Assembly: GCA_018267955.1 (NCBI GenBank)
Contig: JAFDXL010000009.1
Coordinates: forward strand, 708,717 to 772,716
Direction: 5' to 3'
DNA: 64,000 nucleotides
Origin: Bacteroidota bacterium
GTDB taxonomy: Bacteria; Bacteroidota; Bacteroidia; Chitinophagales; Chitinophagaceae
Shown: piece after piece, positions 42,743 through 54,614 of the stretch
Layout: each line of letters begins with the position of its first letter
Numbering within the stretch: the stretch's first letter is position 1
The notes under the pieces: generated by a model
Database searches by the model: none
What the model was told of the DNA's origin: nothing
The model's input: the letters and a program-made list of their open reading frames with translations, nothing else
Made by a program: the position numbers and the translations under genes

Positions 42743-43177
42743 ATGATGAGCGATACAGCGCAAATACGATCAAAACATGGATGGGTACATACCTATTGTT
42801 TTATATGGTCGCTGATCATAAGGTTGTGTATGTCTTACCTGCCGTTTAAATACTACAGAAGGTTATTAGGCGAGCAACAGAAAAAAGCTATACAGGATGT
42901 GACTGATGAACAGTTGCAACAAGCGGAGCGTATAAAAGATATAGTGGAGGAAGTTTGCAAAGGCACGCCCTGGAAGAGCGAGTGTATGGCACAAGCTATC
43001 ATTTGCAAAAGATTGCTGAAGAAAAAAGGACTGCAAACCACCATCTACCTGGGTGTGGCTAAAGATGACAATAACCATCAGAAATTGAAAGCTCACGCCT
43101 GGCTAACACTTGGACAGCATGTATTGACGGGCGCTTACGGATATAAACAATACCAGGTTGCTAATTTCTATAGCTGA
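42743..43177 (+). CDS. Lasso peptide leader protease (B2, transglutaminase-like)
   Basis: A 144-residue member of the lasso-peptide B2 family (transglutaminase-like cysteine protease, Transglut_core3). It removes the leader from the precursor so that the cyclase can act. The catalytic Cys is C81 in WKSECMAQAI and the catalytic His H118 in KAHAWLTLG, with the family end pattern HVLTGAYGYKQYQVANF. The N-terminal hydrophobic part (RLCMSYLPFKYYRRLLG) is typical. Start is ATG 42743 or 42746. It is the only lasso gene at this end of the locus, on the plus strand, and its ATG lies 2 nt after a tRNA terminator. Its stop abuts the stop of the convergent sulfotransferase gene (TGATCA). Confidence 0.9.
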   Translation: MMSDTAQIRSKHGWVHTYCFIWSLIIRLCMSYLPFKYYRRLLGEQQKKAIQDVTDEQLQQAERIKDIVEEVCKGTPWKSECMAQAIICKRLLKKKGLQTTIYLGVAKDDNNHQKLKAHAWLTLGQHVLTGAYGYKQYQVANFYS

Positions 43178-44038
43178 TCACACCAGGATATTGCCGGCAT
43201 TATCTATATAACCATACTTTAAGAGAGCGTCATAATTACAATCGATGATCCGCGTGGCCTGATCGGTAGTTATTTCATTTCTCCAGCCCCCTACTTTACC
43301 TGACCGGAAAAACTGTTTTACATGAGGGGCCATTCGCAGTGCACTTTTCTGCTCCTGGTTTTGTAGTTTCTGAAACGCTGCATTTGCGATAGCCTGCGCT
43401 ACTTCAGCATCTGTATGAGGTATATTAATGTATGCAGCAATTCTGGAAAAGGCCTGCTGAGAATTATTAACCAGGTCTTCATATTTTACCAGCAACATAT
43501 TTTGATGATGCACATTTTCCCAGCTTTGCAGATGCTGGCTCCATGTGCCCATGTGCTGTGACACCTGGCTATTAAGTTTTGTCCGTCTATTTGCCAAAGC
43601 ATGGTCTGAACTGCAGATATAGTCCAACGCTTGTTCTATCGAAACATTATGATGATTTGCCGTAGAAGCAACCATATCGAAAGGGTTGCGTAATATATAT
43701 ACTGTGCCTCTTGTAATGGCGGGAGTAAATAATACCTTTCCTTTTAAGGTACAGGCATCATGCACTTTACAAAGAATATATTCCTGTTTGTGCGCCCTGG
43801 CATAGGCTTCATACATTTGGGTTCTATAAGGCAGATAATCATCGTCCGGAATATCTGATGAACTAAAGCCTAAAGTAGAATCTATGAGTTGCCTGTTTGA
43901 TATGATCAGATTCGTTTCCAGGTTATTGATATCAGGTTCTTTGCCTGTTAACAAGGCAGAAAGAAATATTCTCACCCAGGTATTACCCGATTTGGGATAA
44001 GACGCCAGCCAAATGAATTTTGCGTTGGTATTAAGCAT
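43178..44038 (-). CDS. Sulfotransferase in the lasso-peptide operon
   Basis: A 286-residue PAPS-dependent sulfotransferase. The 5'-phosphosulfate-binding loop YPKSGNTW is at residues 14-21 and the 3'-phosphate-binding segment RNPFDMVAS near residues 116-124, both intact. The C-terminal VGGWRNEIT matches the family's RKGxxGDWKN-like loop (here FRSGKVGGWRNEI). It transfers sulfate to a hydroxyl group. It is the last gene of the minus-strand precursor-cyclase-B1-kinase operon; its start overlaps the preceding kinase by 8 bp. The likely acceptor is the lasso peptide made here (core Tyr13 or a Thr) because a full PAPS pathway is encoded in the same locus. The acceptor is an inference. Confidence 0.88.
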   Translation of the reverse strand: MLNTNAKFIWLASYPKSGNTWVRIFLSALLTGKEPDINNLETNLIISNRQLIDSTLGFSSSDIPDDDYLPYRTQMYEAYARAHKQEYILCKVHDACTLKGKVLFTPAITRGTVYILRNPFDMVASTANHHNVSIEQALDYICSSDHALANRRTKLNSQVSQHMGTWSQHLQSWENVHHQNMLLVKYEDLVNNSQQAFSRIAAYINIPHTDAEVAQAIANAAFQKLQNQEQKSALRMAPHVKQFFRSGKVGGWRNEITTDQATRIIDCNYDALLKYGYIDNAGNILV

Positions 44039-44942
44039 GGCGCATTTTTTCGATAAACAATTCCGCCAATTCTTCTATGCTTTTTGTTTGATCGTTTCCT
44101 AACAACACAACATCAACAAGGCTTGCCATATTTAAAACCTGCGAAGCATAATAGCCGGATTTACCCATAGGGCCAAGCATCCAGGGATGAAAAAGATTGT
44201 CGCGCAGGTGAGTTGTTTTTTCTAAACCGGATAAAGTTTTAAATAAGCCACAACCTATAGAGCTTGCTAACGCGCAGACTGTATTAACCATTACCGGCTC
44301 ATGAAAAACGCTATCATTTACAGGATAAAAATATTTCTCCATGTCGGCCCTCAGCTTTTGTCGTTCTTCCGCGTCTAGCTTTAATTTCCGCAGGCTATCT
44401 TTCCACAGCATGATCCTCGGGAAGGAAGGAAAAGCTATCACTTTTTTATTTATAACCTTTATATAACTAATATCATCAGAAATAACCGGGCAACCTTTTT
44501 GGGAAAGCGCAGCAAGCAGCGCAGATTTGCCCATGGCAGAGATACCAGTAATTAACACACCCCGGCCATCTATCATTACAACACCACCATGCATCATAAT
44601 ATAATTGCGCTGGTAGCCGAGCATTGCAAGTACAGCAGTAAGTGATTGCTTTCTCACATCCTCTAATGCGGCGCCATTTTCCGGCTGAATTGTAATACGA
44701 TTCCCTCTGTTCACCAAATACCTACCAGCACGTGGAATCTTCAGCAGATAATTTTCTTCATTGGCTTCCACTATAGGAAAATCAGCCCTGTTATTATTAA
44801 GAGTTTCCGGAACATCTCCAAAGGCAAGCACAACTTCAGCACCTTCGAGGCTGTTATCTAAAATCAATTCAGGATAATGTATATCAGAAGCGATAGTAAT
44901 ACCACCAACCCGATATTTATATTTAAAGTTTGCCGTAGACAA
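44031..44942 (-). CDS. HPr-kinase-like lasso peptide kinase (K1)
   Basis: A 303-residue protein with the C-terminal HPr kinase/phosphorylase fold. The P-loop is GISAMGKSA (residues ~131-139), followed by VISDDISYIKV (metal-binding acids) and FPSFPRIMLWKDSLRKL. Kinases of this kind occur in lasso clusters; the paeninodin/ThcoK type phosphorylates the C-terminal serine side chain of its lasso precursor. The N-terminal ~110 residues (VGGITIASDIHYPELI onward) are beta-rich and also found in K2. A second kinase gene lies 22 bp upstream. Both core peptides here end in Thr rather than Ser. Confidence 0.85.
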   Translation of the reverse strand: MSTANFKYKYRVGGITIASDIHYPELILDNSLEGAEVVLAFGDVPETLNNNRADFPIVEANEENYLLKIPRAGRYLVNRGNRITIQPENGAALEDVRKQSLTAVLAMLGYQRNYIMMHGGVVMIDGRGVLITGISAMGKSALLAALSQKGCPVISDDISYIKVINKKVIAFPSFPRIMLWKDSLRKLKLDAEERQKLRADMEKYFYPVNDSVFHEPVMVNTVCALASSIGCGLFKTLSGLEKTTHLRDNLFHPWMLGPMGKSGYYASQVLNMASLVDVVLLGNDQTKSIEELAELFIEKMRHA

Positions 44943-44964
44943 AGCGGATTAAATTATTGGTTAA

Positions 44965-45864
44965 TCAGTTGTTCAATTTCGATTCGATAAAGTCCAGGCT
45001 TTCCCGCATCGTTGCCGTGTTGCGGGGCCTGTAAAAATAATACATCGGGATATGAGCCGCCAGGGCCAAAAACAATTCCCGTCGCGATGTGATAGAATAT
45101 AGCAGTTTTGCCAGCTTCTTTCTATACAAGTGTTGGGCAACCAGCAATTTATTCTGAAAGCCCGCAATCTGTTCTAACACGAAGTCGCCGTCTTTATATA
45201 AAGGAAAAATAATCGTGCTTAACTCGTATCCATCGCCACCAGCAATTTCGCTAATGGGCAGTATATATTTAAGCGTTTCAAAATTAATTTTCTGAAGACC
45301 GTTGCCCGATTTGCCAATCAACGCCAATGACGCATCTGAAAGTTTGATACGGGGAACCGAAGGATACGCCAGTATTTTTCCAGGCGCGGCAATCCGGAGA
45401 GTAGTTACATCATCAGACAGCACCTGGTAACCTTTTGAATAAAAATGAGCGGTAAGTGTTGATTTACCAACGCCTGACGCACCACAAAACAAAATAGCCT
45501 TATTATTTATAATAACGGAAGCAGCATGCAAGCTTATGAAACCAAGCGTGGCCGACATGATCATTGCTATTGTGCCCAGTAATTGTGTTGTAATACCGAT
45601 TTCATCGAGATGTGATGCCGGGGTGTATTCGATCTTGTTATTATCCCATATGGCAACAAACCCGAATTGTTCTTTTTGTATACAGGTAAGCTTTAAATCG
45701 GTGTTTGAATATGATTCTGCGGACAATGCATCGGCTGGTATCTTCGCTGATATGTCCGGCCGTACCAAAAGGGAACATTCCGGATCTTCATTCACTTCGA
45801 TGAGTTCCCGAATTGGAATATTCGTTTCAAAAGTATAACCAGAAAGCCTATACCTATAATTCAT
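44965..45864 (-). CDS. HPr-kinase-like lasso peptide kinase (K2)
   Basis: A 299-residue paralogue of the adjacent kinase. The P-loop is the classical GASGVGKST (residues ~127-135); VLSDDVTTLRI and YPSVPRIKLSDASLALI follow. The N-terminal domain starts YRLSGYTFETNIPIRELIE and resembles that of K1. K1 and K2 share architecture but are clearly diverged, suggesting different roles (two sites, or two steps) or a kinase plus a second nucleotide-dependent function. It follows the B1 gene by 20 bp in the same operon. Confidence 0.85.
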   Translation of the reverse strand: MNYRYRLSGYTFETNIPIRELIEVNEDPECSLLVRPDISAKIPADALSAESYSNTDLKLTCIQKEQFGFVAIWDNNKIEYTPASHLDEIGITTQLLGTIAMIMSATLGFISLHAASVIINNKAILFCGASGVGKSTLTAHFYSKGYQVLSDDVTTLRIAAPGKILAYPSVPRIKLSDASLALIGKSGNGLQKINFETLKYILPISEIAGGDGYELSTIIFPLYKDGDFVLEQIAGFQNKLLVAQHLYRKKLAKLLYSITSRRELFLALAAHIPMYYFYRPRNTATMRESLDFIESKLNN

Positions 45865-45884
45865 TGCAATGCCGGAATATGAGC

Positions 45885-46157
45885 TCAGGCCTTTATAGCA
45901 ATACCTCTTTCGAGAAGCTGTTCAATAAACGGAAGTACATCTTTTTCGCATTGCTCGCGTGTAACATTATACTCAACGGAAAGAGCGTCTACAACGGCGG
46001 ACAGAGGCTGAGGTTTCTCCAGCATATTCCATATTTGCTTAGCTGTCTCGTTCAAAGATACATACAGACCAGTTGTTATATTCATCATTACTATTTCACC
46101 ATCCACCTCATTAAAAATATACTGATCTCCTCTCGACAATTGTATGTTCAAATCCAT
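45885..46157 (-). CDS. PqqD-like RRE protein (lasso B1)
   Basis: A 90-residue PqqD-family protein. In lasso-peptide pathways this is the RiPP recognition element (B1) that binds the precursor leader and presents it to the protease B2. The sequence YIFNEVDGEIVMMNITTGLY (the three-strand beta region) and NETAKQIWNMLEKP with QCEKDVLPFIEQLLERGI (helices) are the standard PqqD pattern. It starts 1 bp after the cyclase stop, so expression is coupled. The B protein is split here: B1 in this operon, B2 at 42743 on the other strand. Confidence 0.93.
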   Translation of the reverse strand: MDLNIQLSRGDQYIFNEVDGEIVMMNITTGLYVSLNETAKQIWNMLEKPQPLSAVVDALSVEYNVTREQCEKDVLPFIEQLLERGIAIKA

Positions 46158-46158
46158 C

Positions 46159-47988
46159 TTATACTTGGGGTTGTTTTATCTTGTTGTATATATTGTTAAA
46201 TACAATTAATTTCAAATTCAGCCTGCTACCAGTGCGGCTAAGTTTATTTTCATCAAAATACTGCGTAAATCCGGATTCTAAAGATTCGCGTAGTTTTCTT
46301 ATTGAAAATTCGTTTCTCTTATAAAATGCTTTGATAAAAGGTGTTGTAGGTACAGTGCTCTTCCTGTTATCCCAAACAGCCTGTGGGATGTAATCTTTAA
46401 CTGCAAGCCTGTAAAACTCTCTTTGCGAACCAGGCTTTTTTTCTACGTAGGGCGCTATTGCCATTGTAAATTCCATGAGCCGAACATCTAAAAGCGGAAA
46501 TCTATATTCTATATTGAAGTGCTTACCGACCAGATCATGAGTAAACGCCCGTTTGGCGGTAGCGATGAACCGGATATTTCGAATATATTTATCAGCCAGG
46601 CTCGAAGCTGATAACAGATCAACTGCGGCAGGATTAGTATGCAGATTGTATTGTTCAATTACGCTTCTCTGCAAACCGCTATTTTGCGTACCCTGCAGAG
46701 TTTTTTTAGCTACTTCTTTAGTAATAGCAGTTACGTTAAACCCGCGAACAATATAATATGCAAACCGGGGAATACTACGCCAGGGGCCAAACTCGCGGTA
46801 AAGATTTCTCCAAAGCCTTGAATAATTTTTCGCAATGGCGTTTTGCATATAAAACCCTCTTGCCAAGTTGCTCGCTACATGATCTCCACCATGACCGGAA
46901 AGCATCACTCTAACACCTGCAGATCTTGCTGCAGGCAAAAAAGCACCTGTTATTAGTGGCACCTCTGTTGTATCTTCTTCGTCATATACGTTTAACAGTA
47001 TATCTTCTGCAATAGGCCAGGGATAGTCTGCTTCATTTACAATCTGCAAATAACCGGGTACATCGTATTTATTGCAAAACTCTCTTACAACATGTGTGTC
47101 ATCACCGTAAACATCGAAGCTATTATTCTGCGGTTTGCCGAAACAGAAGGAATGAAATGGTGTTCCTTTTCCTAATATTTCCATTGCCACAGCGGCAATA
47201 GAGGTAGAATCAAGCCCGCCACTGACTTCTGCACCAATGCCTTGCGATGAGCGCAGACGGCATTTTACCGACTCAAACAATAATTCCCTAAACCGATGTA
47301 AATATTCATCCTCGCCGCAGGCAACCGAGGGAACATTCTTGCCAAATTCCCAATAGCGGGATATTTTTAAATTTCCGGAATTCCATTGGAGGGAATGGCC
47401 GGGTGGTAACATTTGAATATTAGCAAAGGGCGTACTACTGGCAGAGGATTCATGAACGCCGCTAATACTGGAAACAACATACCGATCATCTATTTCGCCC
47501 TTAAACCCGGGATGAGCTAATATTCCCTTTATTTCGCTGGCGAATATAAACTGACCATTTATGGTAGTGTGATATAGCGTCTTGATGCCGATATGGTCCC
47601 TGGCAGCAAAAAGTATCTTACGGTTCTTATCCCATATAACAAAGGCAAAATCTCCGTATAAATGCTTAACACAATCAGCGCCCCATCTTTTATATGCAAA
47701 GGCAATAAAAAAAACATCTGCCACTTCAAGACGAGGTGACAGATCCATTTTTTTAGACAACTCTTCCCGATTATCTATACGACAATCTGCAACAACCACT
47801 ATATTTTCATATTCAAATGGCTGCCCGGTATATTTTGACTCTGAGGTATTAAATAATTCAAGAAATGCCAAGCTAACATCCTCGTCCTGATATTGCTCTT
47901 CCCTATCAGGCTGCCAATGCCTTAGCTTGTTCTGCATTAATACTAATACATCAGCATCGTTTCCTGTAAACCCGGCAATACTACTCAT
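46159..47988 (-). CDS. Lasso cyclase (asparagine-synthetase-like)
   Basis: A 609-residue ATP-dependent macrolactam synthetase that adenylates the ring-closing Asp/Glu side chain and joins it to the core N-terminus. The N-terminal half resembles the glutaminase domain of AsnB (YGDFAFVIWDKNRKILFAAR, DHIGIKTLYH) but begins MSSIAGFTG, with no Cys at position 2, so it lacks glutaminase activity, as expected for lasso cyclases. The PP-loop EVSGGLDSTS lies near residue 255. The C-terminal half carries YRFPLLDVRLMEF. It is preceded 55 bp upstream by precursor gene A2. Confidence 0.93.
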   Translation of the reverse strand: MSSIAGFTGNDADVLVLMQNKLRHWQPDREEQYQDEDVSLAFLELFNTSESKYTGQPFEYENIVVVADCRIDNREELSKKMDLSPRLEVADVFFIAFAYKRWGADCVKHLYGDFAFVIWDKNRKILFAARDHIGIKTLYHTTINGQFIFASEIKGILAHPGFKGEIDDRYVVSSISGVHESSASSTPFANIQMLPPGHSLQWNSGNLKISRYWEFGKNVPSVACGEDEYLHRFRELLFESVKCRLRSSQGIGAEVSGGLDSTSIAAVAMEILGKGTPFHSFCFGKPQNNSFDVYGDDTHVVREFCNKYDVPGYLQIVNEADYPWPIAEDILLNVYDEEDTTEVPLITGAFLPAARSAGVRVMLSGHGGDHVASNLARGFYMQNAIAKNYSRLWRNLYREFGPWRSIPRFAYYIVRGFNVTAITKEVAKKTLQGTQNSGLQRSVIEQYNLHTNPAAVDLLSASSLADKYIRNIRFIATAKRAFTHDLVGKHFNIEYRFPLLDVRLMEFTMAIAPYVEKKPGSQREFYRLAVKDYIPQAVWDNRKSTVPTTPFIKAFYKRNEFSIRKLRESLESGFTQYFDENKLSRTGSRLNLKLIVFNNIYNKIKQPQV

Positions 47989-47999
47989 TATACATCAAA

Positions 48000-48014
48000 A
48001 AGGATCAACTCCTT
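48000..48014 (-). other. Short hairpin between precursor A2 and the cyclase
   Basis: AAGGA-TCAAC-TCCTT (minus strand AAGGA-GTTGA-TCCTT) is followed on the minus strand by TTTG. It is weak (5 bp) but lies where lasso operons often have a partial terminator that raises precursor over enzyme expression. The function is inferred. Confidence 0.4.
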
Positions 48015-48043
48015 CTACCCTCAATATCTCTAAAATATAACTA

Positions 48044-48196
48044 TTAGGTATGGTAAAAACCATTCTCGATAATGTCAGTAATACCTCCACCTTTTGTTTC
48101 AGAAACTGATTCTTCTATTAATGCAGGTGCTATCCATGCCTTTTTTCCTGTGATATTCTCTTTTTCGCTATTGTAGCTTTGTTGTGTGTTGTCCAT
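48044..48196 (-). CDS. Lasso peptide precursor A2
   Basis: A 50-residue precursor. Leader (residues 1-35) and core (36-50) are clear: the leader has the B1-recognition motif W21-I-A-P24-A-L26 (the YxxPxL pattern) and ends E-T-K with Thr at position -2. The core is GGGITDIIENGFYHT. Gly1 and Glu9 would form a nine-residue macrolactam ring; Asp6 is too close for known lasso ring sizes (7-9). The six-residue tail NGFYHT carries bulky Phe12, Tyr13 and His14 as candidate plugs. It differs from A1 in the core only at position 8 (Ile for Leu). Tandem stop codons TAA TAG end the gene. Confidence 0.92.
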   Translation of the reverse strand: MDNTQQSYNSEKENITGKKAWIAPALIEESVSETKGGGITDIIENGFYHT

Positions 48197-48200
48197 TATT
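48044..48200 (-). repeat. Precursor gene tandem duplication, unit 2
   Basis: This unit, and 48326-48485, are highly similar through the whole precursor reading frame and about 10 bp upstream (ATATTC.ATAATGG). The rest of the spacer between them is not shared, so only the gene was duplicated. Differences in the leader are scattered, but the core differs at one codon. Confidence 0.85.
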
Positions 48201-48325
48201 GAATATTTTTAAAAAATCAATATCTTTTGCATCATAAAACAACCACCACAGATCAGAACGATAGATAATAACATATGCATTAAATCGAACGCATTTCCGT
48301 CGGGCTATTAGTTATTACGAATGCC

Positions 48326-48481
48326 TTACGTATGGTAAAAACCGTTCTCTAATATATCAGTTATACCTCCACCTTTTGTTTCAGAAACTGACTCTTCTAT
48401 TAATGCAGGTGCTATCCAAGCTTTTTTTTCTGTGATAATATTTTCCTTTGCGCTATTGTAGCTTTGTTGTGTATTGTCCAT
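48326..48481 (-). CDS. Lasso peptide precursor A1
   Basis: A 51-residue precursor, first gene of the minus-strand lasso operon. The true ATG is at 48481; a longer in-frame reading to 48562 lacks leader features. The leader (residues 1-36) carries W22-I-A-P25-A-L27 and ends E-T-K with Thr at -2. The core GGGITDILENGFYHT begins at Gly37. As in A2, the expected ring is Gly1 to Glu9 with tail NGFYHT. The calculated monoisotopic mass of the unmodified lasso form is 1574.74 Da, the same for A1 and A2 because Leu and Ile are isobaric. Confidence 0.92.
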   Translation of the reverse strand: MDNTQQSYNSAKENIITEKKAWIAPALIEESVSETKGGGITDILENGFYHT

Positions 48482-48485
48482 TATC
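48326..48485 (-). repeat. Precursor gene tandem duplication, unit 1
   Basis: See unit 2 (48044-48200). This is the promoter-proximal copy. Confidence 0.85.
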
Positions 48486-48534
48486 GAATATTTTAAAGGA
48501 TGGTCATAAACTATTAAAAATGTAATAATTGGAT

Positions 48535-48542
48535 CAAAAATA
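48535..48542 (-). promoter_or_regulatory. -7 box of the lasso precursor operon
   Basis: On the minus strand TATTTTTG matches TAnnTTTG exactly, 54 nt upstream of the A1 ATG. It drives A1, A2, cyclase, B1, K2, K1 and sulfotransferase in that order. A matching -7 box for the opposite strand lies 64 bp away (48606). Confidence 0.6.
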
Positions 48543-48605
48543 GCAAAAAAACAATGCAGCACTATAAATGTGAATAAATAGTCACAGGTATTTTCACCTA
48601 ATACC

Positions 48606-48613
48606 TATTTTTG
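48606..48613 (+). promoter_or_regulatory. -7 box of the cysD-cysN-exporter operon
   Basis: TATTTTTG matches TAnnTTTG exactly and lies 10 nt before the cysD ATG at 48624. This and the precursor promoter are divergent, so one intergenic region controls both arms of the locus. Confidence 0.6.
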
Positions 48614-48623
48614 AAGATAGGCA

Positions 48624-49517
48624 ATGAATTATTTACAAGAACTGGAGGCAGAAGCGATATATGTGTTCCGGGAAATAGCTGCCCAGTTTAAAAAACCGGT
48701 GTTACTTTTTTCGGGAGGCAAGGACTCTACCCTGCTGATACACCTTGCGGCCAAAGCTTTCTATCCAATGTCTATACCTTTCCCGGTAATGCATGTTGAC
48801 ACCGGGCATAATTTTGAAGAAGCGCTCCGCTTCCGGGATCAGTTGGTGCAACAGAAAGGGCTGAAATTAATCGTCAGAAAGGTAGAAGATTCCATCATAA
48901 AATATGGTATCGAAGAACCCGTAGAAAAATTGCCCAGCAGGAATGTGCTGCAATCTATCACCTTGATGGATGCCATCCGGGAATTTGGATTTGATGCCTG
49001 TATTGGGAGTGGGCGCCGGGATGAGGAAAAAGCAAGAGCAAAAGAACGCTTCTTTTCTGTAAGGGATAAAGAAGGTAAATGGCAGCCATATAATCAAAAG
49101 CCAGAGCTTTGGAATATATACAACGGGTATATTGACGAAGGCGAAAATATGCGGGTATTCCCCATAAGCAACTGGACGGAAATGGATGTATGGCAATATA
49201 TAAGGCAGGAAAACATTGCCCTGCCATCACTCTATTTTTCGCACGAGCGATCTTGTATTGTTCATAACGGCCGGTTGATAGCAGTATCAGAATACATAAA
49301 AATAGATGATGAAGATATACGCCTGACTGAAAATGTGCGATACCGTACCGTAGGCGATATGACCTGTACCGCTGCTATAAAATCGGACGCCAGAACCATT
49401 GATGAGGTCATAAGAGAAATAGAAACATCGAATATAAGCGAGCGTGGCGAAACACGCATTGACGATCAGCTATCGGACGCGGCAATGGAAGACAGAAAAT
49501 TACAGGGATATTTTTAA
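48624..49517 (+). CDS. cysD: Sulfate adenylyltransferase small subunit
   Basis: A 297-residue PP-loop ATPase that, with CysN, makes adenosine 5'-phosphosulfate (APS) from sulfate and ATP. The SGGKDS PP-loop is at residues 30-35, followed by VMHVDTGHNFEEAL, GRRDEEKARAKERFFSVRD, ISNWTEMDVWQYI and LYFSHERSC, all characteristic of CysD. Normal length. It stands first in a plus-strand operon with cysN (8-bp gap) and the lasso exporter. No sulfate-reduction genes (cysH, cysI, cysJ) are nearby, so APS here most likely serves sulfation. Confidence 0.95.
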   Translation: MNYLQELEAEAIYVFREIAAQFKKPVLLFSGGKDSTLLIHLAAKAFYPMSIPFPVMHVDTGHNFEEALRFRDQLVQQKGLKLIVRKVEDSIIKYGIEEPVEKLPSRNVLQSITLMDAIREFGFDACIGSGRRDEEKARAKERFFSVRDKEGKWQPYNQKPELWNIYNGYIDEGENMRVFPISNWTEMDVWQYIRQENIALPSLYFSHERSCIVHNGRLIAVSEYIKIDDEDIRLTENVRYRTVGDMTCTAAIKSDARTIDEVIREIETSNISERGETRIDDQLSDAAMEDRKLQGYF

Positions 49518-49525
49518 CAGGAGCA

Positions 49526-50740
49526 ATGGAGCTATTGAGATTTACGACAGCGGGCAGTATTGATGACGGGAAAAGCACCTTAACAGGCCGCCTACTATAC
49601 GACACGGGCAATATTAAAGACGATGTGCTGGAATCTGTAAGCAAAGTTGGGAATACCATAAACCTGGCGCATATTACAGACGGCCTGCGCTCTGAAAGAG
49701 CGGGAGGCATCACTATAGATATTGGTTACCGGTATTTTAAAACCAATAACAGAAAATACATCATATCTGACGCCCCGGGCCATTTTCAGTACACGAAAAA
49801 TATGGTCACCGGTGCATCGAATGTAGATGTAATGATCATATTGGTAGATGCAAGGAATGGCATCACCAGCCAAACAAGATTGCATAGCCTGGTGGCATCC
49901 TTCCTTAGAACCCGCTACGTTGTAGTAGCAATCAACAAAATGGATGCGCTGGCGTATGCTGAAGATGTATTTGAATCCACCAGGATCGAATACCGATCTA
50001 TTGCCGAAAAGCTACAACTGCGTGATGTAATATTCATTCCCATCAGCGCATTACACGGCGATAATGTATCTGCACATTCTGAAAATATGCCCTGGTATAA
50101 TGGGCCGGACTTGCTGAGCTTTTTAGAGCAATGTGATACACAAAAGACCGCAAACGGCCCCGGCCGGTTATCTATACAGTACACTGCCGAAGATGAATCG
50201 ACCGGGAGAACCCTTTATTTTGGGAAAGTCCTTAGCGTGGAAATTCATAAAGGTGAACGATTGACCGTGTTTCCTTCCGGAAATGAAGTGCTGATAGAAA
50301 AATACATTTCGGGGTACGAAGAATTAGAAACGGCTAAAGCCGGTGAAAATATATGCCTTGAGCTGAATACCAACGATGGAGTGAAGCGTGGTAGTATATT
50401 AGCTCCACTAACACATAGCCCCCAATGCACGAAACACCTCACTGCTGATATATGCTGGCTGGATCCTGAAATTGACTGCGATCAGAACAAAGAATTTATC
50501 TTACGTATTAACACACAGGAATCTATTTGCCGCTTCAGGGATATAGAATACAGGATAAATCCTTTTAGCTTTGATAAAGAAAGAGTTGCCGGCTTAAAGG
50601 TTAATGAAGTTGCAAGCGTTATTATAGAAACCGAAATACCGATTGCGTATGACAACTATGATGTGTGCCCGGAAAACGCCCGGGGCATTATAATAGACCC
50701 TGCAACTCATAATACGGTAGCGGCTATCATGATTCACTAA
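49526..50740 (+). CDS. cysN: Sulfate adenylyltransferase large subunit (GTPase)
   Basis: A 404-residue GTPase subunit that couples GTP hydrolysis to APS formation by CysD. G1 is GSIDDGKST (residues 10-18), G3 DAPGH (near residue 85) and G4 NKMD (near residue 138); GGITIDIGYRYF marks switch I. It lacks a fused APS-kinase domain; a separate cysC is encoded on the other strand at 52528. It overlaps nothing but is followed by an exporter whose reading frame is open well before any canonical start (see the exporter entry). Confidence 0.95.
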   Translation: MELLRFTTAGSIDDGKSTLTGRLLYDTGNIKDDVLESVSKVGNTINLAHITDGLRSERAGGITIDIGYRYFKTNNRKYIISDAPGHFQYTKNMVTGASNVDVMIILVDARNGITSQTRLHSLVASFLRTRYVVVAINKMDALAYAEDVFESTRIEYRSIAEKLQLRDVIFIPISALHGDNVSAHSENMPWYNGPDLLSFLEQCDTQKTANGPGRLSIQYTAEDESTGRTLYFGKVLSVEIHKGERLTVFPSGNEVLIEKYISGYEELETAKAGENICLELNTNDGVKRGSILAPLTHSPQCTKHLTADICWLDPEIDCDQNKEFILRINTQESICRFRDIEYRINPFSFDKERVAGLKVNEVASVIIETEIPIAYDNYDVCPENARGIIIDPATHNTVAAIMIH

Positions 50741-50757
50741 AGAAAAAAAATAATCAC

Positions 50758-52533
50758 CTGGATCTAAAAAAGCGCACGGCATCATTTATCAGGAACCTGG
50801 AAAGTATCTGGTCTATCACCTGGCAAACAGACAAGCGACTGGCTGTGACAAATATTGTGCTGCAAATAGTACAATCACTGTTGCCAGTAGTATCGTTATA
50901 TTATATCAAAGCCCTTATAGAATCGGTTACGGATAGCAACAGCAGCTTTGACCATACACTGCTTTTGATAGTTCTATTTAGCGGCGTACAGCTATTAACG
51001 GCAATAGCTGCACAATATTCTGGCTATATCACTAAGATACATCTGCAAAAAGTAACGGATCATTTATCTGAAAAGGTATTGCACAAAGCCACAGAAGTAG
51101 ATTATGAGTATTATGAAAATCCATCTTATCATGATACGCTACACCTGGCGCAGCAGCAAGCTATTTACAAAGCATCGGCCCTGCTCAACAGTTTTAACTC
51201 TATAATACTTAACAGTACATCCCTGCTATTTCTTACAGGTTTTTTCGTGGCGCTCCATTCATCCTTTGCCATACTGTTTCTTTGCATGTCTATACCTCTT
51301 GCTGTTGTAAAATGGTACCAGGGGCAATCTATAGCGAGGCAGGAAAGACAACTTGCGCCGATAGAACGCGAGGCAGGCTATATACACAATATGCTCACAG
51401 CAACAACAAGCGCCAAGGAGGTGAGGACTTTAGGATTTGGCGAATTCTATATTGAGAAGTTCAGGAAAATACGAGCATATATTTTCGGTGAAAAGAAATC
51501 ATTAGCAGCTAAACATGCAAGGCATAGCTTGCTGGCAGAAGGTGCGGAAGTGATTGTGATGTCGATACTTATTATTTTACTGGCAAAATCGGCATGGGAA
51601 AAGACGATCACACTGGGAACATTTGTAGTGTACCTTCAAGGCTTTCAACGACTGCAGAGTGCATCAAGAAATTTCCTGCAATCGATAGTACAGGTATTGC
51701 AACAAAACATCTTTTTGCGCGACCTGTTTGCTTTCCTGAATATACCAACTGCTGCTACCACCGATGCAGAACAGGCATTTCCGGAAACAAACAAGGGTCT
51801 GGTTGTGGATAAGGTTTCCTTTACTTATCCCGATGCCAATAAATACGCTTTGAAAGATATATCCATCGCATGCAGGCCAGGTAACATTATTGCTATTGTT
51901 GGTGAAAACGGATCGGGAAAATCTACGCTTGTAAAATTGCTGGCACGCCTGTATAACCTGCAAACAGGCAGTATATATATAAATGACACAGCGCTACAAT
52001 CAATATCTGCCAGTTCCTTTACCGCGAACTGCAATTTTATGTTCCAGGATTTTGAGAAGTATTTCCTTACTGTAGAAGAGAATATAAAATTGGGCAGCAG
52101 TGAAAAACAAAAAAACATCGACCAGCTAGAAAATGCGGCGACCTTATCCGGCGCCCACCCTTTTATTAAGCGATTGTCGAAAGAGTATAAAACCAGGCTG
52201 GGCAGGTATTTTGAAAGCAGTGAACAACTAAGCGGCGGACAATGGCAAAAGCTGGTACTATCGCGAGTATTTTATAAGGAGGCACAATTGATAGTGATAG
52301 ATGAACCTACCAGCGCTTTGGACCCGATATCGGAAGCAGAGGTATTTAACAACATAAAAGATATGCTTGCCGATAAAATGGCAATACTCATATCTCACAG
52401 ATTATATAACTTGAAATTTGCCGATATGATCTATGTGATGCATGAAGGAGAGATCATTGAGCAAGGTAGCTTCGAAGAATTAAAAGCGGTAAACGGTAAG
52501 TTTGCAGAGATGTTTGAAGCGCAAAGGCTATAA
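50758..52533 (+). CDS. Lasso-cluster ABC exporter (fused permease-ATPase)
   Basis: A type IV ABC exporter half-transporter of McjD type that exports the mature lasso peptide and usually gives self-immunity. The ATPase domain has Walker A GENGSGKST (coded near 51900), signature LSGGQWQK and Walker B LIVIDEPTSALDP. The N-terminal ~300 residues hold six membrane helices. The first conventional start is GTG 50845, but homologous-looking sequence continues upstream in frame: LDLKKRTASFIRNLE then SIWSITWQTDKRLA, back to at least 50758. No ATG, GTG or TTG exists there, so I propose CTG 50758 as a possible start. The 3' end overlaps cysC by 6 bp on the other strand. Confidence 0.85.
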   Translation: MDLKKRTASFIRNLESIWSITWQTDKRLAVTNIVLQIVQSLLPVVSLYYIKALIESVTDSNSSFDHTLLLIVLFSGVQLLTAIAAQYSGYITKIHLQKVTDHLSEKVLHKATEVDYEYYENPSYHDTLHLAQQQAIYKASALLNSFNSIILNSTSLLFLTGFFVALHSSFAILFLCMSIPLAVVKWYQGQSIARQERQLAPIEREAGYIHNMLTATTSAKEVRTLGFGEFYIEKFRKIRAYIFGEKKSLAAKHARHSLLAEGAEVIVMSILIILLAKSAWEKTITLGTFVVYLQGFQRLQSASRNFLQSIVQVLQQNIFLRDLFAFLNIPTAATTDAEQAFPETNKGLVVDKVSFTYPDANKYALKDISIACRPGNIIAIVGENGSGKSTLVKLLARLYNLQTGSIYINDTALQSISASSFTANCNFMFQDFEKYFLTVEENIKLGSSEKQKNIDQLENAATLSGAHPFIKRLSKEYKTRLGRYFESSEQLSGGQWQKLVLSRVFYKEAQLIVIDEPTSALDPISEAEVFNNIKDMLADKMAILISHRLYNLKFADMIYVMHEGEIIEQGSFEELKAVNGKFAEMFEAQRL

Positions 52534-53415
52534 TACTACCGCGGCTTCCCTACTCTTTATTAATCCTGATTTTTCTAATTCTGCGATGATGGTGGCAACG
52601 CTTTCCTTTATCGTGCTGTTATTTGCATCAATATGGATACCTGGTTTTATAGGGCGTTCATAAGGGCTATTGATACCGGTAAAATCTTTGATCTTTCCCT
52701 GCTCTGCCAGCGCATATAGCCCCTTCTTATCCCGCATCTTACAGGTATCGATGGTGGCATCTACAAATATTTCCATAAAGCTATCGTCACCAATAATGCT
52801 ACGCGCATTTTGCCTGTCTTCTGCAAACGGCGATATAAAGGCAGCAATAACTATAGTACCGGCATCATTAAATAATTTGCATATCTCTGCAACCCTGCGG
52901 ATATTCTCTTTCCTGTCTTCTTTTGAAAATGAAAGATCTGTATTGATGCCCAGCCTGGTATTATCACCATCCAGCACATAGCAGCTATACCCATGTTCAT
53001 GAAGCCAGGCATCCAATTCGGTTGCGATAGATGATTTGCCGGAAGCAGATAACCCTGTAAGCCAAAGTGTAACACTTTTGTGACCATTCCTATCTTCTCT
53101 CTGTTGCCTGTTGACCTTGGTCGTTTGTTTGAATAACTGCGGTTCTATTTTCTTCTTGTTCCTTTCCGCTACTTTCTCTTTGCTTTCACCTTTCAGTTTT
53201 ACTTTGTGCCAAACCCTTTCGTGCAAAAAGTAGAATAAGAACTTGGTGAATAATTCCAGGCCGCCAATCTTCAGACCGGTATTAATTTTGCCCGTAACTA
53301 ACCACCCAAGCAATGTAGTATCCAAAGAACCAACAATGCGCCAGGTAAGCGATTTAAACAGATGCCTGCGAAGCGAATAATCGTTCCTGATATTTTTAAT
53401 AAATAAGTCTATCAT
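52528..53415 (-). CDS. cysC: DUF2061-adenylylsulfate kinase fusion
   Basis: A 295-residue fusion. Residues ~12-75 are a DUF2061 membrane domain (SLTWRIVGSLDTTLLGWLVT, then ELFTKFLFYFLHERVW). Residues ~115-295 are an APS kinase, which phosphorylates APS to PAPS, the sulfate donor. The P-loop is GLSASGKSS (the usual form is GLSGSGKST), with LDGDNTRLGINTDLSFSKED and RIAEICKLFNDAG-type segments intact. The fusion would tether PAPS synthesis to the membrane. Its ATG overlaps the nucleotidyltransferase stop by one base (TAATG). With cysD/cysN, it completes a dedicated PAPS supply for the sulfotransferase at 43178. Confidence 0.88.
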   Translation of the reverse strand: MIDLFIKNIRNDYSLRRHLFKSLTWRIVGSLDTTLLGWLVTGKINTGLKIGGLELFTKFLFYFLHERVWHKVKLKGESKEKVAERNKKKIEPQLFKQTTKVNRQQREDRNGHKSVTLWLTGLSASGKSSIATELDAWLHEHGYSCYVLDGDNTRLGINTDLSFSKEDRKENIRRVAEICKLFNDAGTIVIAAFISPFAEDRQNARSIIGDDSFMEIFVDATIDTCKMRDKKGLYALAEQGKIKDFTGINSPYERPIKPGIHIDANNSTIKESVATIIAELEKSGLIKSREAAVVL

Positions 53416-54614
53416 TAACTAACCGCCATTTTTTTCTTGTCAGTTTTCGCAATAAAAATCCTGGTTAACTTTACAAAGAAATACAAAAAATGTAATCTTT
53501 CCGGAAGCCGGTAATACTGGATATCCTCAACGGAGGGTTGAAAGGCATATTTTATCAATTTAAAGGTCAGTTTTACCCTACCTATAATATCGTCAGTGTT
53601 CTTAAGAACCGATACTTGTTTTTGCCAGGGGGTTCTTTGCTTTTTCTTGCCTGATAATAATACGTCTATATAAGGTGTTGTATCTATTTGCGCGGCAGGC
53701 AACAAGCCGCCTCCAACGTCCAATAGTTCATTGAGTAGCTGAGAGCCTGAAAGAAGTACCTTATTAAACTTGTATTCCCCGGTTATAGCTGTCACAACTT
53801 TCATATCCGGCCGGCCATTTTGCAATATCATCGCCAGATCAAGCAGGTATTTCAGTGAATTCCAGTTTTCACGCAGCCCATGATGCAGAAGCATCGTTAC
53901 AAAATGAAACTCTGTATTCAGGGCTTTAATATCTGTATTCCTGAAGTTCAGCACAGCAGGATGCTGAAACAACTGTTGATTGGATAGTTTCTTATGCAGT
54001 TCGAATACCGGGTGGTGTGCCAGCCATTGTATCTCTACGTGAAACTTACGTTGCCCATTCACATACTTATCAAAATAAAACTCGCAAGTGTTCTCAAGAA
54101 TCACCCTTTTCATCCCAGGCACCAAGTTATACATAGGATGGTAACCCAAAGGAGTAATAATATCTATGATTTTTTGCAGATCCGGAGCGGTTGAGGGATC
54201 GATCAGCAGATCAATATCCACAAATTCTCTCAGTGTCTGGTCTTTGTAAAACGCAGAAGCGAATGCGGGCCCCTTGTAAGGAATGGCGTCTATGCCATGC
54301 TGTTTTAAAACATCCAGCAGCTTCAATAACTCTTGCTGTTGTTCTGCACAGTTTATCGCCAAAGACAGCCTGTCGTGCTTCAATCGCTGCTTCACATCCC
54401 CGGGCATATCTGCTGACTGTAATACATGATAGGCTAACGGGCGTATCCTATTTTTAACAATGACCCTGTACAAACCCCACCAGTCGACTGAATATTCTTT
54501 TAAAAAGGCATTTAGCTGTTCCGACGAGGCAGTGCCAACAAATACCCTGCAGATAAGCACAACTGCAGCCTGCTCCACACCGTACTTTTCACTGATTACA
54601 TTGACAGATAACAT
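53415..54614 (-). CDS. Nucleotidyltransferase-family protein in the lasso locus
   Basis: A 399-residue protein of the uncharacterised NTP_transf_5 nucleotidyltransferase family (PF14907). The metal-binding signature is YKGPAFASAFYKDQTLREFV, then DIDLLID, near residues 115-138. The surrounding helical parts are typical (RPLAYHVLQSADMPGDVK, LDVLKQHGIDAIPYKG). Homologues recur in lasso-peptide clusters that also carry an HPr-like kinase, where a role in tailoring (possibly nucleotidylation) is suspected but, to my knowledge, not proven. It is translationally coupled to cysC. A -7 box lies 41 nt upstream. Confidence 0.8.
   Translation of the reverse strand: MLSVNVISEKYGVEQAAVVLICRVFVGTASSEQLNAFLKEYSVDWWGLYRVIVKNRIRPLAYHVLQSADMPGDVKQRLKHDRLSLAINCAEQQQELLKLLDVLKQHGIDAIPYKGPAFASAFYKDQTLREFVDIDLLIDPSTAPDLQKIIDIITPLGYHPMYNLVPGMKRVILENTCEFYFDKYVNGQRKFHVEIQWLAHHPVFELHKKLSNQQLFQHPAVLNFRNTDIKALNTEFHFVTMLLHHGLRENWNSLKYLLDLAMILQNGRPDMKVVTAITGEYKFNKVLLSGSQLLNELLDVGGGLLPAAQIDTTPYIDVLLSGKKKQRTPWQKQVSVLKNTDDIIGRVKLTFKLIKYAFQPSVEDIQYYRLPERLHFLYFFVKLTRIFIAKTDKKKMAVS

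Follow-up and report, generated by a model that had tools for sequence, protein, structure and literature searches.

Lasso peptide clusters of the paeninodin and pseudomycoidin type share a precursor peptide, a leader-recognition protein (B1), a leader peptidase (B2), a macrolactam cyclase (C), an exporter, an HprK-like kinase, a nucleotidyltransferase and, in some, a sulfotransferase (ST) (PMC8498205, PMC4289311). The role of these ST genes was called unclear when they were noted in lasso clusters in 2014 (PMC4289311). In the Bsf lasso pathway, the HprK-like kinase BsfK, which has been shown to act on the precursor, is likewise accompanied by a nucleotidyltransferase, and the gene list available for that pathway contains no ST (PMC10368454). 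The RaxX–RaxST system of Xanthomonas combines a ribosomal peptide, an ST that uses 3′-phosphoadenosine 5′-phosphosulfate (PAPS), an exporter and the named PAPS-synthesis genes raxP and raxQ, but it is not a lasso system and its PAPS enzymes are described as core housekeeping genes (PMC6637879, PMC9484694). The present study concerns a locus at positions 42743–54614 of a 64,000-nt stretch (the window) of contig JAFDXL010000009.1 from a Bacteroidota bacterium, whose genome is here designated G000. In contrast to clusters of the paeninodin and pseudomycoidin type, for which the accessible text mentions no PAPS genes, this locus has two HprK-like kinases (K1 and K2) and a dedicated set of cysD, cysN and cysC; unlike the available Bsf gene list, it includes an ST. 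Probably, to judge from its genes, the locus makes a sulfated lasso peptide and supplies its own sulfate donor. An earlier note on this DNA considered a full PAPS set beside an ST to be new for lasso pathways, and in the open-licence literature searched, as far as its text was accessible, neither a sulfated lasso peptide nor a lasso-linked PAPS set was found, an earlier mention elsewhere being possible. Lasso clusters with ST or HPr kinase genes have been published before (PMC4289311, PMC8498205), and the new part is therefore the donor supply and its distribution.

The evidence for this reading begins with the PAPS genes themselves, which form a complete set: cysD, for the small subunit of ATP sulfurylase (48624..49517, plus strand; TIGR02039, 398.5 bits against a cut-off of 396.6), cysN, for the large GTPase subunit (49526..50740, plus strand; TIGR02034, 384.9 bits against 336.1), and a DUF2061–CysC fusion for the kinase of adenosine 5′-phosphosulfate (APS) (52528..53415, minus strand; PF01583, 210 bits; TIGR00455, 226.2 bits against 138.7; PF09834 (DUF2061), 67.6 bits, at the N-terminus). 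PAPS sulfotransferases are characterized by a positive residue in the first PAPS motif, a Ser in the second and a His or Glu base between them (PMC6637879). The ST gene (43178..44038, minus strand; PF00685, 99.8 bits) encodes the motifs PKSGNT, KVH and RNPFDMVAS, in which K16, T20, H93, R117 and S125 are invariant in an alignment of five lasso STs, and its product is predicted to be a PAPS-dependent enzyme. Its closest sequence matches in the PDB are TEG12, Teg14 and StaL, of the glycopeptide antibiotics, together with cytosolic sulfotransferases, but the similarity is low. TEG12, Teg14 and StaL sulfate peptide antibiotics, and their substrates are non-ribosomal. A profile search of the whole G000 genome (4.18 Mb in 10 contigs and 98% complete, so that about 2% is possibly missing; enzymes of other families would escape it) returned one match each for PF00685, PF01583 and PF01507, all three within the locus, and a single PF13469 match, which is again the locus ST. 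As the one PF01507 match is CysD of the locus, no CysH was found, and sulfite reductase (NIR_SIR, PF01077) gave no match; G000 thus shows neither of the two components, CysH and sulfite reductase, by which reductive sulfate assimilation was recognized. No further use of PAPS was found in G000 by the families searched. The earlier note had described all steps of sulfate activation without reduction genes, and had accepted that an assimilation pathway with reductases elsewhere in the genome would overturn its interpretation; the genome-wide search bears out the description and turned up no such pathway, the sole APS kinase, PF01507 and Sulfotransfer_1 proteins being those of the locus. The best reading is that the locus would provide activation steps that its host lacks.

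The association of ST and donor genes extends well beyond this genome. APS kinase was found in four of the 15 genomes of the genus (G000, G298, G350 and G397), every time in a lasso locus, and was not found in the other 11. PF01507 matches above 140 bits are confined to the same four, the remaining genus genomes having none or matches of at most 45 bits; G094, whose lasso locus has no window-type ST, gave no APS kinase and a PF01507 match of only 30 bits. In the family, a B2 model run over 394 genomes matched in 24, in 22 of them above cut-off, and gave 23 loci above it. A window-type ST is present in seven, that of G068 being degenerate and that of G248 split, and CysC lies nearby in six of the seven as opposed to one of the 16 loci without ST (Fisher p = 4.6e-4, relatedness uncorrected). 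G298 and Bacteroidetes bacterium 43-93 (stretch L023), apparently one genome, were counted once; G397, located via its CysC, stands outside the table, and G204, G276 and the second match of G053 were excluded as under the B2 cut-off. The stretches covered about 10 kb on each side of B2, and more for G138, G136, G323 (both loci), G350, G068 and G094; because the CysC genes of G323 and G068 lie about 11 kb from B2, a 10 kb limit would have lost them. Around the 15 ST-less loci besides G136, the genome-wide positions of APS kinase show none on the lasso contig up to a distance of 30 kb (in G351 that contig is only 11.4 kb). Such co-occurrence was what the earlier note had suggested looking for, and the counts support a pattern more general than it claimed.

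Moreover, the donor genes carried by a locus appear to match the metabolism of its host. The five hosts without a strong CysH match (G000, G298, G350, G397 and G136) carry all three genes, cysD, cysN and cysC, at the lasso locus; G298 and G136 each have one further PF01507 match (43 and 47 bits, respectively), in frames of about 440 residues. In G323 and G138 the lasso locus has cysC only; there cysH and cysD, from which host APS capacity was judged, lie on a separate contig, and no APS kinase besides that of the locus was found. This is the division expected if the task of the locus is to ensure a PAPS supply and the host, in the latter two cases, is able to make APS itself. G068 fits the rule poorly, its cysH standing by a cysD–cysN–cysC–kinase run that adjoins the degenerate ST.

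The PAPS genes may have been recruited from at least three sources, represented by the window type, G350 and G629. A tree of 19 CysD sequences places those of the window, G298, G136 and G397 together (97/93), and the 100/100 group around the window type also contains the CysD of non-lasso ST modules in G373 and G204. The CysD proteins of G350, which groups with two others (97/96), and of G629, which is very distant, lie outside the 100/100 group, on long branches whose exact placement is unsure. An alignment search with the ST matched six of 395 Bacteroidota genomes (G000, G629, G493, G539, G586 and G590), and in G629 and G493 the ST is inside a lasso locus. In G629, which belongs to another family, a run of kinase, ST, B1, B2 and C is accompanied by a TauE/SafE-type transporter gene, cysD and a cysN–cysC fusion that contains the only CysC found in the genome; the link between ST and PAPS genes therefore recurs with differing gene orders and PAPS modules. 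The transporter gene (L147, 2474–3442) immediately precedes cysD, and its product is possibly a carrier for sulfate or sulfite. A tblastn search of plasmids with the ST gave nine records, and the stretches read for five of them comprise two lasso loci, two cases of a kinase beside ST (Tistrella pTM1 and pTM3, with no cyclase or B2 match) and one distant ST homologue (22% identity) among glycosyltransferase genes, on a Niveispirillum plasmid. The lasso loci are those of Thalassobaculum sp. OXR-137, with annotated B2 and PqqD, a cyclase match and a kinase–ST pair, and of Hyphomicrobiales UR115, which gave matches for B1 and cyclase but none for B2 and again has a kinase–ST pair. Their 19 kb stretches gave no match for cysD, cysN or cysC, which suggests that lasso STs are more widespread than the PAPS-carrying form.

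Several observations weigh against a self-supplied, sulfated lasso peptide. The locus has no known product. The lasso locus of G493 has an ST and no PAPS gene within 60 kb, the sole CysC lying on another contig, an arrangement that agrees with the step-matching rule but does not test it. The ST of G068 has lost its motifs and cysD is there beside cysH. In G248 the ST is split over two frames and no CysC was found, but the contig measures 6.6 kb and the genome is 65% complete; no precursor was found at this lasso locus. At the ST-less G136 locus with CysC, a sulfotransferase-like frame stands directly before cysD, but it is marginal (Sulfotransfer_3, 19.6 bits against 27, E 0.0012) and without PDB support. 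A further ST of G350 (PF13469, C66), whose 20 kb stretch contains no lasso gene, could share the PAPS; of the three other phylum genomes with ST matches (G539, G586 and G590), the one that was read, G539, likewise shows no lasso gene in 20 kb. Finally, five of 25 lasso genomes (G373 C77, G351 C26, G204 C38, G330 C1 and G354 C6) have CysC and ST together at a distance from lasso genes; the 25 were searched with PF13469, PF00685 being applied to G000 only, so that further Sulfotransfer_1 proteins may be missed. These pairs suggest a general module that was taken up by lasso loci. Beside the G068 case it may be recorded that the degenerate gene (L069, 3–740) encodes an ST without PAPS and catalytic motifs next to the cysH–cysD–cysN–cysC run, possibly a case of lost sulfation.

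The pairs outside lasso loci are also the main support for the proposal that the ST acts on a surface glycan, a lipid or another metabolite and that the PAPS/ST module merely lies within a lasso locus, as are, to a lesser degree, the non-lasso modules in the CysD group of the window and the Niveispirillum homologue among glycosyltransferase genes. We regard this as unlikely, because the locus ST is the only PF00685 protein in G000 and is built into the lasso genes: a minus-strand run from 48481 to 43178 consists of the two precursors, C, B1, K1, K2 and, at its end, the ST, whose gene shares 8 bases with that of K2. The same partnership is seen elsewhere, a kinase adjoining the window-type ST in all ten lasso loci read (window, L023, L065, L068, L072, L074, L099/L069, L144, L147 and plasmid L130) and in L132 also. 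That cysD, cysN and cysC serve ordinary sulfur assimilation of the host would accord with the cysH that adjoins cysD near the lasso genes of G068, but this is highly improbable for G000, which has no CysH or NIR_SIR match, and in a genus where 11 of 15 genomes gave no APS kinase; it was set aside there on the genome-wide searches, which placed the sole APS kinase inside the locus. A role in defence was also considered and set aside, seven locus proteins having no PADLOC match.

The remaining genes, identified like those above by open reading frames and profile searches, are intact at the coordinates given here and indicate that the locus is a lasso peptide biosynthetic cluster with a predicted threaded product. 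B2, a transglutaminase-like peptidase (42743..43177, plus strand; PF13471, 75.1 bits; NF033537, 72.4 bits, cut-off 33), abuts the ST gene from the opposite strand. K2 (44031..44942, minus strand; PF07475, 35.3 bits against a cut-off of 33.3) and K1 (44965..45864, minus strand; HprK_rel_A, E 3.6e-11; PF07475, 23.8 bits, under cut-off) are followed upstream by the PqqD-like B1 (45885..46157, minus strand; PF05402, 73.1 bits; lasso_PqqD_Bac, 70.8 bits, cut-off 80). The asparagine-synthase-like cyclase (46159..47988, minus strand; PF00733, 106.9 bits) has NF033535 as its best NCBIfam match, above the asparagine synthase models, although its 298.8 bits are under the cut-off of 525. Read by eye, K1, with the P-loop GASGVGKS, has the H...GxxGxGKS...DD motif of BsfK; K2 has GISAMGKS, in which the middle Gly is absent. 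Precursor 2, with core GGGITDIIENGFYHT (48044..48196, minus strand), and precursor 1, with core GGGITDILENGFYHT (48326..48481, minus strand; the ATG lies within a longer GTG frame), were recognized by leader and core motifs: both have a W-x-x-P-x-L leader motif, conforming to the lasso pattern W/Y-x-x-P, Thr at −2, Gly1 and an acidic residue among positions 7–9. A plus-strand run from 48624 to 52533 comprises cysD, cysN and the ABC exporter (50845..52533; PF00005, 99.8 bits), and a second minus-strand pair, from 54614 to 52528, comprises the nucleotidyltransferase-like NTP_transf_5 protein (53415..54614; PF14907, 126.1 bits) and then DUF2061–CysC, stop and start sharing one base. Lasso and sulfate-activation genes are thus interleaved rather than side by side. 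On each of these points, namely complete lasso machinery with two precursors, split B1/B2 and exporter, the intermixed ST and cys genes, and the two kinases with a nucleotidyltransferase, the earlier note had read the locus correctly.

A scan of genome contigs for the locus found one relative, L023, with the same gene order and 73–95% identity per gene; one of its precursors has Ala at position 6 and retains Glu9. Across nine locus genes dN/dS is 0.056–0.130 (ST 0.077, cysD 0.062, CysC 0.056), the set comprising neither B1, the nucleotidyltransferase nor the precursors, and the exporter being taken from position 50878 on. Because the order is kept and dN/dS is low, the association of these genes would be beyond chance.

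There are two views of where the sulfo group would go, and to each we give somewhat less than an even chance. In one, the ST modifies Tyr13, as RaxST does on RaxX; all four precursors, two from the window and two from L023, share the FYHT tail that includes this residue. However, Tyr is absent from the cores predicted for G323, G138 and G629, though they lie beside homologous, intact STs, and Tyr was accordingly set aside as the general acceptor. In the other, which we hold about equally probable, the sulfate sits not directly on the peptide but on a sugar or phospho-sugar installed by the kinase and the nucleotidyltransferase. This would suit the Tyr-less cores, the kinase that adjoins the ST throughout, and the precedent of pseudomycoidin, described as glycosylated by a kinase and nucleotidyltransferase (PMC8498205); G323 C13 and G068, by contrast, have no nucleotidyltransferase match in 60 kb (the ST of G068 being degenerate). 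Core borders are predicted, least surely for G323, G138 and G493, and wherever a precursor could be predicted in a lasso locus with ST, its last residue is Ser or Thr. Together, the Tyr-less cores, these ends and the constant kinase–ST neighbourhood point to a shared acceptor in the tail, either a hydroxyl or a sugar attached to it; in the window, Tyr13 is a candidate as well.

From gene content, families and the recurring link between ST and PAPS genes, which can be read directly from the DNA, we infer the following chemistry, order of steps and acceptor for a sulfated product. B1 would deliver the precursors, and one or both HprK-like kinases, by comparison with paeninodin and BsfK, may phosphorylate a hydroxyl. 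B2 would cut after the Lys that follows Thr(−2), and C would join Gly1 to Glu9 to form the ring, with NGFYHT as the tail. CysD and CysN would convert sulfate and ATP to APS, from which DUF2061–CysC, perhaps held at the membrane, would make PAPS; the ST would then move the sulfo group to a peptide hydroxyl (Tyr13 or Thr15) or to a sugar added via the nucleotidyltransferase, and the ABC protein would export the product. The two precursors of the window are isobaric, with a calculated lasso mass of 1574.7365 Da, in agreement with the 1574.74 Da of the earlier note; the sulfated form would have 1654.6933 Da and the phosphorylated form 1654.7028 Da. With one ST, one donor pathway and a calculable mass for both precursors, G000 permits a clean test, because the donor genes sit with the ST and no second route of sulfate activation was found in the genome. 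If the proposal is true, then sulfation can be added to phosphorylation and glycosylation among the lasso modifications, and the locus is a case of biosynthetic genes compensating for missing primary metabolism of their host. More tentatively, and with rather less than even confidence, these loci could make lasso peptides of one recurring family, doubly charged with phospho and sulfo groups, and act as portable sulfation cassettes with exactly the steps that the host lacks, in which the kinase–ST pair would build a joint phospho-(glyco-)sulfo tail; in some hosts, the completion of one ribosomal peptide would then be the sole evident reason for activating sulfate.

Some features of the locus and its relatives deserve separate mention. 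The exporter frame is open above its first ATG, GTG or TTG, back to 50713 (50713–50845), overlapping the end of cysN, and there is an A-run just past the cysN stop; the true start may lie upstream of 50845, and a non-standard start or slippage is possible. The DUF2061–CysC fusion recurs in lasso loci (window, L023, L072 and L118) and in L081 and L120, where no lasso gene was seen, and its domain composition suggests a membrane-held APS kinase. In G397 (L118, 7252–13951), genes for a Sulfotransfer_3 protein, a radical SAM/SPASM protein, a 2OG-Fe(II) oxygenase and a PRMT-like methyltransferase lie near DUF2061–CysC, cysN and cysD. Lastly, Phage Tail Collar genes occur in several lasso stretches (one by the PF07484 profile, the rest by motif or eye), seemingly as three neighbouring copies in L144 (2451–4209) and L147 (11813–13550) and as single motif matches in L060, L063, L065, L068, L072 and L122.

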